Part shown: positions 27,790 through 34,516 of the stretch, piece after piece
How positions within the stretch are numbered: the stretch's first letter is position 1
How the letters are laid out: each line of letters starts with the position of its first letter
Assembly (NCBI GenBank): GCA_947499095.1
Contig: CANMMR010000003.1
Coordinates: forward strand, 186,001-250,000
Reading direction: 5' to 3'
Source: an uncultured Erythrobacter sp.
Lineage (GTDB): Bacteria; Pseudomonadota; Alphaproteobacteria; Sphingomonadales; Sphingomonadaceae
Length of the DNA: 64,000 nt
The notes under the pieces: generated by a model
Seen by the model: the letters and a program-made list of their open reading frames with translations, nothing else
Told to the model about the DNA's origin: nothing
Databases searched by the model: none
Made by a program: the position numbers and the translations under genes

Positions 27790-29232
27790 TCAGACGTCCG
27801 TGTCGTTTTGCGGGATATCGCGCCCCGGACCGTCCCGCTTTTCCGCTCGCATCTCATCGGCGGCCGGAACGGAAAGTGTGAAGCGCGCGCCCTGCCCCGG
27901 CGCGCTCTCGACCGTGAGATCGCCGTCCATCGCGCGTGCGATCCGGCGTGAAATATAGAGCCCTAGGCCAGAGCCACCATCGCCGCTGCGCCCCAACCGC
28001 TCGAACTTCTCGAACACCCTCGCCTGTTGTTCCTCGTCGAGACCGTGACCCTGGTCTGCCACAGTGATGAGCGCGCGGCTGCCGATCCGGTCGAGCCGGA
28101 TCCAGACCTGACTGTCTTCAGGCGCATAGCGTATGGCGTTACCGACGAGGTTGAGCAGGATCTGCAACACCCGCCGGAATTCGGCGATGGCCAGCTGGCT
28201 TTCGCCTTCTACGGGAGGCACCAGTGTGATGCCTTTCTCCTGCGCACGAACCCCGAGGATGCCGCAGGCCCGCCGCGCGACATCGGCAAGCTCGATGCGG
28301 TCCGGCGCGGTAACGAACTGGTCTGACTCGACGACTTCTAGGTCTGAGAGGTCGTCGATCAGCGCCAATAGATGCTGGGCCGCGGCAGCGATATCGGCCG
28401 CATAGGAACTGTATTCGTCAGCAATCGGCCCCGCTAGCTTCGTTCTGATCGTTTCGGCGTTGGCGATGATGCGATTGATCGGTTGGCGAAGGACCGGCGT
28501 GAGGTCGCGACCGAAGGATGCGCCTTCGATACCGGCACCATTCTCCGCAGCTTCTACGCCCGCAGCAGGCGTGTCAGCAGTCAGGTAGAGGGCGAAGCCT
28601 GCACTACCCGGCTCGCTCTTGCCGAGCGGTTCCAGATGCGCCGTCCATGCGCGCTTGGACCCGTCGATTTCGCAGCGCGAACCATCGAGCAAGCGCCAGT
28701 GGAGCGGCTGCTCGTGCGTGCTGCCTGGCAAATGGACGAAATCGGTCCAGGGCCGCCCAATCCCCGCGCGAGCAGCTTCTACGAACCCCGCAAGGTCGCG
28801 CGCCTCGGTCTCTACCGACAGTATGCCCTGCGATGGGCTCAGCCGCACGGTGCAATCCGCGAGATGCCGGTTTATCTCGATCCGGCGACGCGCTGCGTCA
28901 AGCTCGTTTTCCGGCGGCAGTTCCTCGCTGTGCCAGCTCACGACATCGATCGCGCTCTGCGAAATATTCCCGTCGTCATCGAACTTGGGAGTAATTTCCA
29001 CCCAGGCGGTGATGCTGTTGTCGCCATCGATAGCGGTGAATTGCCGCGCAAGGCGAAGGCCGTAGGTGTTGGCCTTGTCGACCAGCGCCTGCAGTTCGGG
29101 AATGGCGATCGGACCTCCGATCTGTCCGCTGCAGGCTTCCTGCAAGCTCGCCAGCGGTTCGCCGGCTTCCACGAGCCGCCCTTCGCCATCGGCTTTTGCG
29201 GATGCGATATAGCTTGTGCCGACGCTGGCCAT
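27790..29232 (-). CDS. Histidine-kinase-like protein without the phospho-accepting histidine
   Basis: A 480-residue soluble protein: a PAS-like N-terminal part (about 35-220), a dimerisation helix region (about 245-300) and a complete HATPase_c domain (about 335-460). The ATPase motifs are all there: N box (LLNLVGNAIRYA), G1 (DQGHGL), F box (FEKFERLG) and G2 (GSGLGLYISRRI). In the helix where kinases have SHELRTPLN, this protein reads TPVLRQPIN, so the histidine is replaced by proline. It may signal by binding or phosphorylate nothing. ATG 29232 lies two bases after the upstream gene; it is the last gene of a four-gene run. Confidence 0.8.
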   Translation of the reverse strand: MASVGTSYIASAKADGEGRLVEAGEPLASLQEACSGQIGGPIAIPELQALVDKANTYGLRLARQFTAIDGDNSITAWVEITPKFDDDGNISQSAIDVVSWHSEELPPENELDAARRRIEINRHLADCTVRLSPSQGILSVETEARDLAGFVEAARAGIGRPWTDFVHLPGSTHEQPLHWRLLDGSRCEIDGSKRAWTAHLEPLGKSEPGSAGFALYLTADTPAAGVEAAENGAGIEGASFGRDLTPVLRQPINRIIANAETIRTKLAGPIADEYSSYAADIAAAAQHLLALIDDLSDLEVVESDQFVTAPDRIELADVARRACGILGVRAQEKGITLVPPVEGESQLAIAEFRRVLQILLNLVGNAIRYAPEDSQVWIRLDRIGSRALITVADQGHGLDEEQQARVFEKFERLGRSGDGGSGLGLYISRRIARAMDGDLTVESAPGQGARFTLSVPAADEMRAEKRDGPGRDIPQNDTDV

Positions 29233-29234
29233 GG

Positions 29235-30200
29235 TCAGACGATCCCCATTGTGCCGGCTTCGACAAGCCATTTCTTCGCTTCGGCCGGCGTGATCCCATC
29301 GAGCCCGCCTGGCGGGCTGCTTTGTGGGTGTAGCCGCAGAAGCTGGGTATTTGCTTCCGCCGCGTCGAGACCGCAGCCGCGCAGCGCCAGCGCGAGCCGC
29401 GCGACCTGCTGTTCGTTCGTAGCAAGCACAGCAAGGTTGCGCGACTGGTTCGACCGCGCCGCCAGTGCTGTAATGAACAGCGCGACACCGGCCTGTTCCA
29501 CGTCGAGCGCTTTCCGCACATCGTCACCAAGCCCCGCCACGAGCCGCGCGAGCAGCGACAGGCGGGCCGAGCTCTCGTCATAGGCGTTGCGCAGCTTCGC
29601 TTCTGCGCGGATCATGGCATCGGACCGGCGATCGCCCCCGAAATTGCGCCACCCCAGCAGCAGTTCGTGGAACAGGTCTCCAGGCAGTTCGGCAAGCGAA
29701 AGCTCCATGCGCCGCTGCGACTGAGCGAAGCGCGCCTGCGCCGCCAAAGCCCCCATCGCCGCGCTGGCCTGACCGCTGTCGGGCGAAGCGATCAATGTTT
29801 GAAGTAGCGGGGAAAGCACCGGGTCGATGCCGTATTGCGCTTCCATCCGCGTCGCCAATTGCCACTCAAGCGCGAGGGCATGGCAATGCGAGAGGATGCG
29901 CGGACTGGTGAACAAATGCTGCGCCAGCGCTTCGCCATGCTTGTCGGCAAAGGCTTCGCGACCTGCTTCCCCTGTCGCCTCCGCCTGCGCCCGAAGGATC
30001 TGCCAGGCAAGATCGTGGCACATCCCGCGAATCCGCGCGACGATCTCGTCGCTGAACAACGAATGGTCCGGTGTTGCGAGCAAATGCTCCAGTATCGGCG
30101 TAACCCGCGCAAGCACGGCATTCCCGCCAGCCAGGGAATCGCGCAATTCTCTTGCTTGGTCCGCTGAGGCAGCGTCAGGCACCGGAATCTCCATCTTCAT
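29235..30200 (-). CDS. Hypothetical helical protein in the signalling-like cluster
   Basis: A 321-residue protein that I do not recognise. It has no signal peptide or membrane segment, appears almost wholly alpha-helical, and is rich in Ala, Leu and Arg. A helical-repeat or DUF2336-like scaffold is possible but not supported by any motif. Its stop is two bases before the kinase-like gene, and the upstream gene ends 35 bases away, so it belongs to the same transcript. Proteins in this position could connect the kinase-like and HPt-like proteins. Confidence 0.7.
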   Translation of the reverse strand: MKMEIPVPDAASADQARELRDSLAGGNAVLARVTPILEHLLATPDHSLFSDEIVARIRGMCHDLAWQILRAQAEATGEAGREAFADKHGEALAQHLFTSPRILSHCHALALEWQLATRMEAQYGIDPVLSPLLQTLIASPDSGQASAAMGALAAQARFAQSQRRMELSLAELPGDLFHELLLGWRNFGGDRRSDAMIRAEAKLRNAYDESSARLSLLARLVAGLGDDVRKALDVEQAGVALFITALAARSNQSRNLAVLATNEQQVARLALALRGCGLDAAEANTQLLRLHPQSSPPGGLDGITPAEAKKWLVEAGTMGIV

Positions 30201-30235
30201 GCCTTCGCGCTATCATGGACATGGTTAAGTCGACG

Positions 30236-31414
30236 TTAGTTGCCACGGTAAGGCACAAGGAAGAGCGAAGTCAGCACCAGCAGGGCCATGATCGCAGTGA
30301 CCGGCTGGGTAATCCCTAGAAACGCGCACGGAACCAGCAATGCGCTGATTGCTATCCGGTCGCGGTAGGTCTCGCCCCAATTGTCGTCCCGCAGGCGAGC
30401 ACCTAGCCGCAAGAGACCGAACAGCACCGCCGGAACGAACAGTCTCAGCCAACCGGTATCTTCGGGAGAGGCGGCCGCGATGAGGATCGCCAGCACCGGA
30501 TCAGTCGACCAGTCCAGCGCTTTCGCCAGCGCCGATCTTCGCGCGCCGAATTGCCCCGCCCGCGCGATGCGCTCCACCGTCTCTCCCGCCGCGCCGAGCA
30601 GGGCCATGACCGTACCGAGCGCCAGTGCGGGTACCGGCATGCCGAGAGCCGCGGATGTCAAAGCGCCGATCCCGCTAACCGCTGCGCCCAGCGCTGGAAG
30701 TCTCGCGCCCTTTTTGCCCAATGTGTCGCGCGCAAGCCGGGCGCCGACCCGCTCTGCGACCGCAAGTCCGGGCGCCGTGAAGGGTGCTGGCGATGCATGG
30801 GTCTTGATCCAGCGTTCTTCCCTGTCGGCCAGGTCTTCGATGCTGGGGTCGATATGCCACTGACCGTCCTCGATCAGCCGCTTTTCCAACGGCAGGACCT
30901 TGACCCCGGATTGCAGCGACAGCCGCAGCAGGCTGGCAACCACGTCGCTATCAGGCGGCAATTCGGCGAGGCGTTCGACTACCGAACCGGGCGCGAGCAA
31001 AGCGCCCGACCACGCAAACTCGGGATCTATCCGCTCGTAGCCCCTCGGCACGGCGTCTTCGGCTGGAAAGGCCAGCACCGCCGGGCGAGCAACATTGCGG
31101 AGCACAGCAGCATCGGAAGGCAGGACGCCGGGAGCAAGCACGAACAACTCGTCCGCAGCAGTCACAAGACCCGAGAGCGCTCGCGGGTTCTGCATGGCGA
31201 CGAAGCGGACGCCGGATTGTTCGGCACGTCTCTGAGCCTCCGCGACCTCGCGGCCGATCCCTTCGACGAGACAGGCAATGGTTTCACAGCCGGCCGCCAG
31301 CGCGAGATCGATCTGCCGGTCGATGATGCGTGCGCCCGCGAAATTGCGATAGGCCGCACGCACCGGTGCCGGGGTGATGGCATCATCGAGCGTGGAAAGT
31401 AGGGCGACGCGCAA
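30236..31414 (-). CDS. Nucleotidyltransferase-like domain fused to a membrane domain, function unknown
   Basis: A 392-residue protein. Residues about 1-160 look like a Rossmann-type nucleotidyltransferase fold (MRVALLSTLDD..., a region RIIDRQIDLALAAGCETIACLV). Residues about 230-390 have several hydrophobic segments (for example ALGMPVPALALGTVMALLGA), a size and layout like CDP-alcohol phosphatidyltransferases, but the DGxxAR...GxxxDxxxD signature is missing. The start is TTG 31414 with GGAGAG about five bases upstream. It is second in the run that ends with the kinase-like gene. A non-catalytic relative of IPCT-DIPPS enzymes is one possibility. Confidence 0.6.
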   Translation of the reverse strand: MRVALLSTLDDAITPAPVRAAYRNFAGARIIDRQIDLALAAGCETIACLVEGIGREVAEAQRRAEQSGVRFVAMQNPRALSGLVTAADELFVLAPGVLPSDAAVLRNVARPAVLAFPAEDAVPRGYERIDPEFAWSGALLAPGSVVERLAELPPDSDVVASLLRLSLQSGVKVLPLEKRLIEDGQWHIDPSIEDLADREERWIKTHASPAPFTAPGLAVAERVGARLARDTLGKKGARLPALGAAVSGIGALTSAALGMPVPALALGTVMALLGAAGETVERIARAGQFGARRSALAKALDWSTDPVLAILIAAASPEDTGWLRLFVPAVLFGLLRLGARLRDDNWGETYRDRIAISALLVPCAFLGITQPVTAIMALLVLTSLFLVPYRGN

Positions 31415-31493
31415 AACGCTCTCCGGTTGGGCTGCTGCGCTGGCACTCTAGTTTTGCCCGGACGGCTAAGCCACCCCAGTCGGTGGATTTCCC

Positions 31494-31799
31494 TCAGTCC
31501 CGGAAAGCGAGTTCTTCGCTGAAGTTACGAATACGGACGACTATTCCCGGGTCGCCCGGTGCGCCCTCCAATGCTTCTCGGGCCAGCGCCGCTAATTCAT
31601 GCGCGTGGAAGCTGGCAGCCAGTCCCTGGAGGCGTTCGGCAGCGACCAGCCAGTTTCCGTCGCACCGCGCTCTGCCCAGCAGATCGGCCTGCCGTGCCAC
31701 GCTCTGTGCGAAAGCAGCCTTCAACTCGGCCTGCAGCGCCTCGTCGGCACCGGCAGCCGCTCCGATCGCGGCTTCGAAATCTGACGAATGATAGGCCAT
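31494..31799 (-). CDS. HPt-like protein with glutamate in place of the phospho-histidine
   Basis: A 101-residue helical protein that matches the HPt four-helix pattern. The stretch AAERLQGLAASFHAHELAAL lines up with the usual AAHxLKGxAxxxGAxxLAxL, so glutamate stands where the histidine should be and glutamine stands at the lysine. It cannot take part in normal His-Asp phosphotransfer; glutamate could mimic the charged state. An upstream ATG at 31844 is in frame, but ATG 31799 (MAYHSSDFE) fits better. It is the first gene of the leftward run and is divergent from the coiled-coil gene. Confidence 0.6.
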   Translation of the reverse strand: MAYHSSDFEAAIGAAAGADEALQAELKAAFAQSVARQADLLGRARCDGNWLVAAERLQGLAASFHAHELAALAREALEGAPGDPGIVVRIRNFSEELAFRD

Positions 31800-31885
31800 A
31801 GCGGGCTTGACCAGGCATAGATCAGTTAAAGTGGGTTTAAGCATGAACGAAACGTGGTAGATTCCGGCTTATGAGGAAGCGCTCC

Positions 31886-34516
31886 ATGATCAAGGCGGTC
31901 TCCGACGAGACATCGGTCGAAGAAATCGAAATCGAGGGTTCTCAGAACCCTATCGAAGAAAGCTCGGACGAGTTCGAGGAATCCTACGATGCGGATGTGG
32001 AAGAGTACGAGGAATTCGTCGCCGAAGACGATGACCGCTCACTCCGTCGCCAGTGGGTCGCGCCGGCTCTTGCCCTGACTTTTATCGTCGCTTGGACCGC
32101 CTTCTTCGTGTGGGCGAACCGGAGCGAAATGCTCGTAGGCGGCACGGCGCAGCAATGGACCGGCTGGATCACCAGCTGGGCTATCCCGGTCCTACTGGTG
32201 GTGAGCTTGTGGATGCTGGCCGTCCGCAATTCCCGGCGGGAGGCGCGCAGGTTCGGCGAAGTTGCACGGTCGCTGTCGGAAGAGTCGGCGCGGCTCGAAG
32301 CCAAGCTGGCCGTGGTGAACCGAGAACTCAGCCTCGCGCGCGAATTTCTCGGCTCGCAGACGCGCGATCTGGAATATCTCGGCCGCTCGGCAAGCGAACG
32401 GATTTCCGAACATGCCGACCGGCTTCAATGCCTCATCCACGACAATGGCGAGCAGGTGGATGCGATCGCCCGCGTCAGCGACACGGCACTAGAAAACATG
32501 GACAAACTTCGGGACAATCTCCCGGTCATCGCCAATTCGGCCAAGGATGTCTCGAATCAGATCGGCAGCGCCGGGAGGACGGCGAAATCCCAGCTGGACG
32601 AGCTGGTCGCAGGCTTCCGCCGGCTCAACGAATTCGGCACTGCGAGCGAGCGGCAAGTCGCTTCCCTGCGCGAGCGCGTCGATGAGGCACTCGTTGCGTT
32701 CGAGGCGCAGACCGAGCAGCTGGGGACCATTGCAGAGCAGCGTTTCGCGGTCCTCCGAGAGGAGAGCGAAGCATTCCGCGGCGAACTGGACGGGCGGGAA
32801 GTCGATGCCCTCGCCGCCATGCGCGGTCGAGCCGAAACCCTGCGGACAGAACTTGCCGAAACCGGGCAGCAGACGTCGGCGGAGCATGAGGCTGCTGTCG
32901 CGCATTTGCGGGTCCAGCTCGACAGCTTGCGCGATGAAGCAGCGGCGATCGCTGCCGAGGTGCGGGACGGCGAAGCAACGGCTCTGGCGAGTTGGGGCAA
33001 CCAGATTGACGCCATGCGCGAACGGCTTGAGCGGACCGTCGAAGAGATCAAGGCGATAGACCAGTCCGCGCTCGACTCCGCGAATGAGAAGCTGAAGGCC
33101 CTCTTCGCCGAAGCCCAAGCCGTCGACGCCCGAATCAGCGAACGCAACCGCCTGTTCGACGATCAAACGGCCCGGCGACAGGCGAATTTCGACGCTGCGG
33201 AGGAAGCGGCTCTGGCGACCATGCATGAGCGGCTCGAAGCGCTCGACGGCGCGCTGGCTGCCAAGCGTGCCGCTCAGCTGGAGCAGGCCGACGCGCTTGC
33301 TCGGGAAGGCGATGCGCTGGCGGAAAAGATCGGCCGTCTCGGTGAAGTATTCGATGCCGTCCACCGGCAGGGCCAGGAAGCCAGCGGCAGCGTTGCAGAG
33401 GGCGTCGACGCGCTCAACGCGAAGCTGGTCGAAAGCCGCGAAGCGCTCGACGGGACAGATATGGCCGTGGCAGCATTGACGGATGCGAGCGTGCGCCTGC
33501 TCGAACTCATCCAGGCGAGCGCCCAGCAGAGCCGCAACGACCTACCCAATGCGATGACGGCGAGCGAGGAACGGCTCGCAGCCATCGAGACCCGTGCCCG
33601 CGAAGTCCACTCGCTGCTCGACCAAGCCCGGCAGGCCGGTGAGCAGGCCAGCGCAAGCATGGACACCGCCGGGAACCAGGCCCGTGACGCCATGGAAGAG
33701 ATCGACCGCTTCCAGGCCGATTTCGGGGAGACCACCGCAGCCCAAGTCGCCGGCATCGAACGGCTCCGCGCGAGCGTCGCAGCGCTCGGCTCCGAAAACG
33801 AGGCAGTGGCGGCGAAAGCGCAGGAAGCATTGCGCGAGGCGATCGAGGCGCTTCAAACCAGCGCACGCTCGGCCCTTGCAGCGATCGAAAGCGAGCAGGC
33901 CGACCGAATCGACAAGATTGCGGCGAAAGTCGGCGAAAAGAGCGCCGAATCGATCGAGAAGGCGCTGGCGGAACACACCGACGATGCGCTGGCGAAGCTG
34001 GAAGAGGCGACGACACGGTCCTCCGAAGCTGGACGTGAAGTTACGCGGCAGCTGCGCGACCAGCTCGCCAAGGTGAACGAACTGACCGGCAATCTGGAGA
34101 GCCGTATCGCCCATGCGCGCGAACGCGCGACCGAGGACGTCGATAACGACTTCTCACGGCGCGTCGCGCTGATCACCGAAAGCCTGAATTCCAATGCCAT
34201 CGACATCGCTAAGGCCCTATCGACCGAGGTGACCGACACGTCCTGGGCAAGCTATTTGCGCGGCGACCGGGGCATTTTCACGCGCCGTGCCGTGCGTTTG
34301 CTGGACAACACCGAAGCGCGGGAGATCGCCGAACTCTACGATGCGGACCACGATTTCCGCGAGCACGTGAGCCGCTACATCCATGACTTCGAGGCAATGC
34401 TACGGACGATGCTCAGCACCCGCGACGGGCACGCCGTCAGCGTCACTTTGCTGTCGAGCGATATGGGCAAACTCTATGTGGTGCTGGCACAGGCCCTCGA
34501 ACGCCTGCGGCAGTAG
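31886..34516 (+). CDS. Large membrane-anchored coiled-coil protein (TipN-like)
   Basis: An 876-residue protein: an acidic cytoplasmic N-terminus (1-50), two transmembrane helices (about 57-78 and 94-113), then an almost continuous coiled coil rich in Ala, Glu, Arg and Gln (about 118-760) and a compact C-terminal part (about 770-876, SWASYLRGDRGIFTRRAVRLL, SDMGKLYVVLAQALERL). Architecture and size match Caulobacter TipN, a polarity factor of about 890 residues with two N-terminal helices. Homology is not shown. I chose ATG 31886 because GAGGAAG lies seven bases upstream; ATG 31871 has none. Its stop abuts that of the DUF1467 gene. Confidence 0.7.
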   Translation: MIKAVSDETSVEEIEIEGSQNPIEESSDEFEESYDADVEEYEEFVAEDDDRSLRRQWVAPALALTFIVAWTAFFVWANRSEMLVGGTAQQWTGWITSWAIPVLLVVSLWMLAVRNSRREARRFGEVARSLSEESARLEAKLAVVNRELSLAREFLGSQTRDLEYLGRSASERISEHADRLQCLIHDNGEQVDAIARVSDTALENMDKLRDNLPVIANSAKDVSNQIGSAGRTAKSQLDELVAGFRRLNEFGTASERQVASLRERVDEALVAFEAQTEQLGTIAEQRFAVLREESEAFRGELDGREVDALAAMRGRAETLRTELAETGQQTSAEHEAAVAHLRVQLDSLRDEAAAIAAEVRDGEATALASWGNQIDAMRERLERTVEEIKAIDQSALDSANEKLKALFAEAQAVDARISERNRLFDDQTARRQANFDAAEEAALATMHERLEALDGALAAKRAAQLEQADALAREGDALAEKIGRLGEVFDAVHRQGQEASGSVAEGVDALNAKLVESREALDGTDMAVAALTDASVRLLELIQASAQQSRNDLPNAMTASEERLAAIETRAREVHSLLDQARQAGEQASASMDTAGNQARDAMEEIDRFQADFGETTAAQVAGIERLRASVAALGSENEAVAAKAQEALREAIEALQTSARSALAAIESEQADRIDKIAAKVGEKSAESIEKALAEHTDDALAKLEEATTRSSEAGREVTRQLRDQLAKVNELTGNLESRIAHARERATEDVDNDFSRRVALITESLNSNAIDIAKALSTEVTDTSWASYLRGDRGIFTRRAVRLLDNTEAREIAELYDADHDFREHVSRYIHDFEAMLRTMLSTRDGHAVSVTLLSSDMGKLYVVLAQALERLRQ

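Follow-up and report, generated by a model that had tools for sequence, protein, structure and literature searches.

What does a signalling operon do when its kinase-like protein and its HPt-like protein both lack the phospho-histidine? The question is raised by a locus in the window, i.e., the whole stretch of 64,000 nucleotides analysed here, which comes from an uncultured Erythrobacter sp. and has its nearest named relatives in Erythrobacter and Qipengyuania records. Annotation of two-component proteins goes by fold, and this block of genes would be read as a phosphorelay accompanied by a biosynthetic enzyme. Pseudo-kinases and pseudo-HPts are already known singly; in the open-licence literature on DUF2336, ZMO1962, ZMO1961, and pseudo-histidine kinases and pseudo-HPts, we found no report of this operon or of its combination of pseudoenzymes.

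Four tightly ordered leftward genes had been predicted at 27790-31799, and they do follow one another head to tail, all of them on the minus strand. They encode an HPt-like protein (31494-31799, 101 aa), a fusion of nucleotidyltransferase-like and helical membrane-type domains (30236-31414, 392 aa), a DUF2336-like all-helical protein (29235-30200, 321 aa), and a kinase-like protein (27790-29232, 480 aa) with a PAS-like N-terminus followed by HisKA and HATPase_c domains. The open reading frame of the latter was listed from 29271; judging from the sequence, translation probably begins with the ATG at 29232, immediately after the upstream stop. On the kinase side of the block, Pfam identifies gltA (citrate synthase) and gltX (glutamyl-tRNA synthetase) on the plus strand. 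At the other end, the HPt-like gene adjoins a divergent plus-strand gene (31871-34516) for a coiled-coil protein of 881 aa.

The kinase-like protein matches the Pfam models HATPase_c (1.5e-28) and HisKA (1.1e-5). Its phospho-histidine site is occupied by Pro246 (codon 28497-28495), where the window reads DLTPVLRQPI instead of a His box. In HMMER alignments with solved kinases and with paralogues from the same genome, this proline stands opposite their histidine, in agreement with the original prediction; a pattern picks out a canonical His box in five of the seven same-genome paralogue loci considered (all but L005 and L007), a set that leaves aside four further paralogue places. Among the 149 distinct family rows with a letter in this column, from 151 sequences in total, 119 have Pro and only two have His, both from a Zymomonas-like genus, and none has Tyr, the residue of DivL. 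The residue after the lost histidine is V, A, I, S, or G in 149 of 149 rows, and never acidic. At the level of sequence, the predicted intactness of the ATPase is borne out by a complete HATPase_c domain and by the residues of the N, G1, and G2 boxes, which are kept in 149-150 of the 151 distinct rows. The PAS-like character of the N-terminal region is a weak assignment made by eye, since PAS models match 1 of 56 family members each.

The HPt-like protein of the window has no Pfam Hpt match of its own. It is assigned through its relatives, of which 21 of 46 match the Hpt profile with E values of 1 or less, the best being 1.5e-4; a search of the family profile against solved structures yielded weak matches to unrelated proteins alone. 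The glutamate predicted in place of the histidine is Glu55 (codon 31637-31635, window letters AAERLQG). In the 138 distinct rows of the family, this column contains Met (51), Leu (27), Gln (19), Glu (12), Trp (11), and others, and His in five. The flanks are near-invariant, with Trp at -5 in 138 of 138 rows, Ala at -1 in 133, and Arg at +1 in 135, and this preservation around a freely varying column was counted in favour of a reading without phosphorelay. When 298 family genomes were scanned with a pattern that detects only genes with the motif CD[GA]NW, 140 matches were obtained in 139 genomes, two of these matches having His. Residue 65, ten positions after the lost site, is His in 102 of 138 relatives and Gly in 25; canonical HPt domains have Gly at this position.

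The missing histidine is thus a lineage-wide feature of both proteins, and the losses are not a matter of chance because they extend over the whole family. Relatives that keep a histidine do exist, but they are rare, namely seven rows with the residue in one of the two proteins each; no locus was found to have it in both the kinase and the HPt. On the tree, one pair of these seven rows goes together and the others are isolated; we counted five changes for the HPt-His rows, three for the Pro/other state of the kinase, and one for the kinase-His state. The tree was built by FastTree from 148 rows of the kinase-like protein; of its 145 inner branches 44 are open, its long branches carry a flag, and such counts do not tell gain of His from loss. 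Taken at the level of sequence, the intact N, G1, and G2 boxes together with the non-acidic residue after the lost histidine fit a system that would use binding or ATP-driven switching instead of phosphorelay.

The gene cluster itself is kept by many sphingomonad bacteria. We analysed 176 loci chosen by a match to the fusion, DUF2336-like, or HPt-like gene, and found the fusion gene in 173 of them, the coiled-coil gene in 171, the kinase gene in 159, the DUF2336-like gene and gltA in 149 each, and the HPt gene in 148; these counts are not prevalences, as the loci were preselected and some genomes entered twice. That the four genes form a conserved block, together with the coiled-coil gene, was observed in 128 of 176 loci, all 128 having the same order of divergent coiled-coil, HPt, fusion, DUF, and kinase genes, with the coiled-coil gene beside the HPt gene. 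In 119 of 119 five-gene loci with gltA in the stretch, gltA comes next after the kinase gene on the opposite strand. In single-sequence searches at E up to 0.001, the fusion gene was detected in 113 of 149 family genomes, and the DUF2336-like gene in 32 of 147 genomes of the order. Profiles at the same threshold detected the fusion gene in seven of 289 genomes of the class, four from the same family and three short weak matches outside it, and the HPt gene in nine of 289, four from the same family and five weak matches outside (E 2.5e-7 to 7.1e-4). In loci L101, L108, L273, L298, and L303, the coiled-coil and fusion genes were found along with gltA, and the kinase, DUF2336-like, and HPt genes were not, perhaps reflecting a joint loss of these three.

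The four genes could have separate functions and merely share a promoter. Compatible with this are four loci, and five more with gltA, in which the kinase, DUF2336-like, and HPt genes were not found but the fusion and coiled-coil genes are present, although some of these stretches may be cut. Against it, both order and orientation are the same in each of the 128 five-gene loci, and three losses of chemistry are gathered within one operon, so that we hold separate functions to be rather unlikely. If the proteins do form a complex, the loci where the HPt, DUF2336-like, or kinase gene was not found imply that it would not be obligatory everywhere.

The third of these losses concerns the fusion protein. 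The predicted fusion of a nucleotidyltransferase-like and a membrane part proved to be a full-length structural relative of the archaeal IPCT-DIPPS. The family profile matches this enzyme from Archaeoglobus fulgidus (4MND) with E 5.2e-5, and the AlphaFold2 model (pLDDT 93.2) aligns with it over 361 residues with Z 24.6 and rmsd 4.9, so that the same two-domain fold extends over the whole length of the protein; the next structure matches, at Z 18.0, are also CDP-alcohol phosphotransferases. In Pfam, NTP_transf_3 is matched by four of 29 members (best 4.2e-4). What the window protein lacks, compared with 4MND, is the nucleotidyltransferase loop and the CDP-alcohol phosphotransferase signature. 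GxGxR is the nucleotide loop motif of nucleotidyltransferases, and the 74-row alignment of the family contains none, residues 8-19 being variable. The CDP-alcohol phosphotransferase signature is given in a published report (PMC4634129) as D1xxD2G1xxAR...G2xxxD3xxxD4. It is not kept in the family: its columns vary among the 74 rows, with D305 alone conserved in that stretch (71 of 74), and the HMMER alignment sets non-Asp consensus letters against all four signature aspartates of 4MND. The protein therefore looks like a third pseudoenzyme, in addition to the two that had been predicted, with its catalytic signatures apparently lost.

Conserved instead are the motifs GFERID...AWAG and LP.D.D..SALLRIALQ, and these unusual motifs leave room for some other activity. 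It may be supposed that the fusion protein catalyses some novel reaction, of the nucleotide-sugar or the lipid type, and is regulated by the other members of the operon. Such a role would agree with the strong conservation of both motifs and with the full IPCT-DIPPS fold, but the missing GxGxR loop and the variability of the phosphotransferase Asp columns, other than that of D305, make it improbable in our view.

The remaining protein of the operon, described originally as a helical unknown, is all-helical, and its AlphaFold2 model is a confident one (pLDDT 93.8). The word "unknown" may have to be qualified: DUF2336 (PF10098) is matched by six of 53 family members (best 1.3e-23), the window's own protein having no match, and a link to this domain is suggested through these relatives. 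The model had no convincing relative in the PDB (best Z 4.5, best Foldseek E 0.08), which does not show that the fold is new, and no report on DUF2336 was found in the open-licence literature.

Phosphate could still be moved by the kinase and HPt proteins if another residue had taken over. A histidine elsewhere in the dimerisation region is indeed conserved, 144 of 149 rows having it in the second DHp helix, and the HPt family has its +10 histidine in 102 of 138 rows. However, in our alignment the helix-2 histidine is also present in the canonical kinase 5UHT, which we take to be HK853, and so does not give the impression of an acceptor that has moved. The +10 position of the HPt is Gly in 25 of 138 rows, at a distance of some three helix turns from the usual site, and the residue after the lost kinase histidine is never acidic. 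Phosphate transfer by such a route thus seems very improbable. The suggestion that the genes are relics on their way to loss, to which the lost phospho-histidine sites and the parts missing from some loci might point, is barely credible in view of the dN/dS of the four genes, which is 0.08-0.27 relative to three congeners (with dS above 1 and near saturation, hence not a precise value), the many near-invariant positions, and the oxygen phenotype in Zymomonas described below. These dN/dS values indicate purifying selection on all four genes, and three of the four operon proteins look enzymatically dead yet selected for.

We return to the reading based on binding and ATP-driven switching. That the operon encodes an ATP-binding signalling complex working without phosphorelay, with the kinase-like protein as a switch or adaptor in the manner of DivL, is in our analysis the likeliest of the readings considered, though it falls short of probable. 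More tentatively, it may be specified as a sphingomonad complex made mostly of pseudoenzymes, in which an ATP-gated pseudo-kinase, a pseudo-HPt, and a membrane pseudo-IPCT-DIPPS serving as a sensor or anchor would control aerobic growth. The complex, its gating by ATP, the signal, and the role of each partner are what we infer. The kinase-like protein would keep its ATP site, and phosphate would not be carried at the usual place of the dimerisation helix. A signal on the PAS-like region and the state of the catalytic domain, bound to ATP or ADP, would together set the shape of the kinase, and this shape would gate the binding of partners, as with DivL in Caulobacter. The pseudo-HPt might dock on receiver or kinase surfaces and accept no phosphate, acting as a docking or decoy partner. 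The pseudo-IPCT-DIPPS, and perhaps also the divergent coiled-coil protein, could provide the membrane anchor or the ligand-sensing part, whereas the DUF2336-like protein might be a bridge. The output would support aerobic growth.

Precedents exist for two of the components. AHP6 and other plant pseudo-HPts have the HPt fold with the phospho-histidine replaced and act as decoys in plant signalling; they are plant proteins, and are likened to the HPt of the window by description only. The closer parallel is DivL of Caulobacter (4Q20), which, like the kinase of the window, is an alphaproteobacterial HisKA-HATPase protein without phospho-histidine, and which works by binding. DivL has Tyr at the site where the window kinase has Pro, and its operon partners differ. 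With the family profile, 4Q20 reaches 96.6 bits, less than the 139.1 bits of the best canonical kinase. A published study describes DivL as a sensor that has no kinase or phosphatase activity, binds ATP weakly, and acts through the binding of DivK~P (PMC4211667). The weak binding of ATP is a difference from the protein described here, whose ATP boxes appear intact by sequence.

An experimental indication of the output comes from Zymomonas mobilis. Published reports identify ZMO1964 as glutamyl-tRNA synthetase (PMC4033097), ZMO1963 as citrate synthase (PMC4578398), ZMO1962 as a putative histidine kinase, and ZMO1961 as uncharacterised (both PMC10746277). Thus, ZMO1964-1961 has the same order of gltX, gltA, kinase, and next gene as the window, the likeness being one of gene order alone. 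According to the latter report, an oxygen-specific phenotype was assigned to the ZMO1961-ZMO1962 unit by CRISPRi, among genes for aerobic growth (PMC10746277); this phenotype covers the whole transcription unit and not single genes. In addition, ZMO1962 is named in two other reports, in one among proteins lowered in hydrolysate (PMC12502597) and in the other as a gene lowered at high temperature (PMC8237431).

Among the genomes considered here, the block is present in the Zymomonas-like genus, with gltA beside the kinase gene. This genus is very likely Zymomonas itself; RnfC and paired GH68 genes occur in four of the four genomes tested. In its two loci L127 and L283, the kinase has His in the phospho-histidine column, followed by Ser, and the HPt gene was not found. 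The Zymomonas-like system may thus be a less altered form, and for the same reasons the forms without histidine may not share its phenotype. The published oxygen-specific phenotype in Zymomonas mobilis makes the block directly testable. A family-wide block with three of four members apparently devoid of chemistry and yet selected would also be a natural test of what these three folds, of kinases, HPt proteins, and CDP-alcohol phosphotransferases, can do minus catalysis.

Finally, the divergent gene and the region that separates it from the operon deserve a description. By eye, the 881-aa protein has two N-terminal membrane-like stretches followed by a long coiled coil, an architecture which presumably resembles that of Caulobacter TipN. 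Between the divergent coiled-coil and HPt-like genes lies a conserved element, TTAAACCCACTTTAAC, at 31825-31840 on the minus strand, with a family consensus of about TAAACCCCGC-TTAACC. Control by CtrA was considered and rejected: the element of the window is an exact TTAA-N7-TTAA, but this spacing occurs in just 17 of 118 upstream regions, and TTAAN7TTAAC gave 7 strand hits versus 6 for the reversed control in the window genome, and 5 versus 7 and 6 versus 6 in two congeners. TTAA[CTG] is located 22-40 nt before the ATG of the HPt gene in 115 of 118 distinct upstream regions, and the two-part form AAACC-N4-7-TTAAC was found in 82 of 118 upstream regions versus 54 of 10171 control windows. The position of the two-part form of the element varies little, its TTAA starting 27-31 nt upstream of the ATG of the HPt gene in 88 of the 90 upstream regions that have this form.
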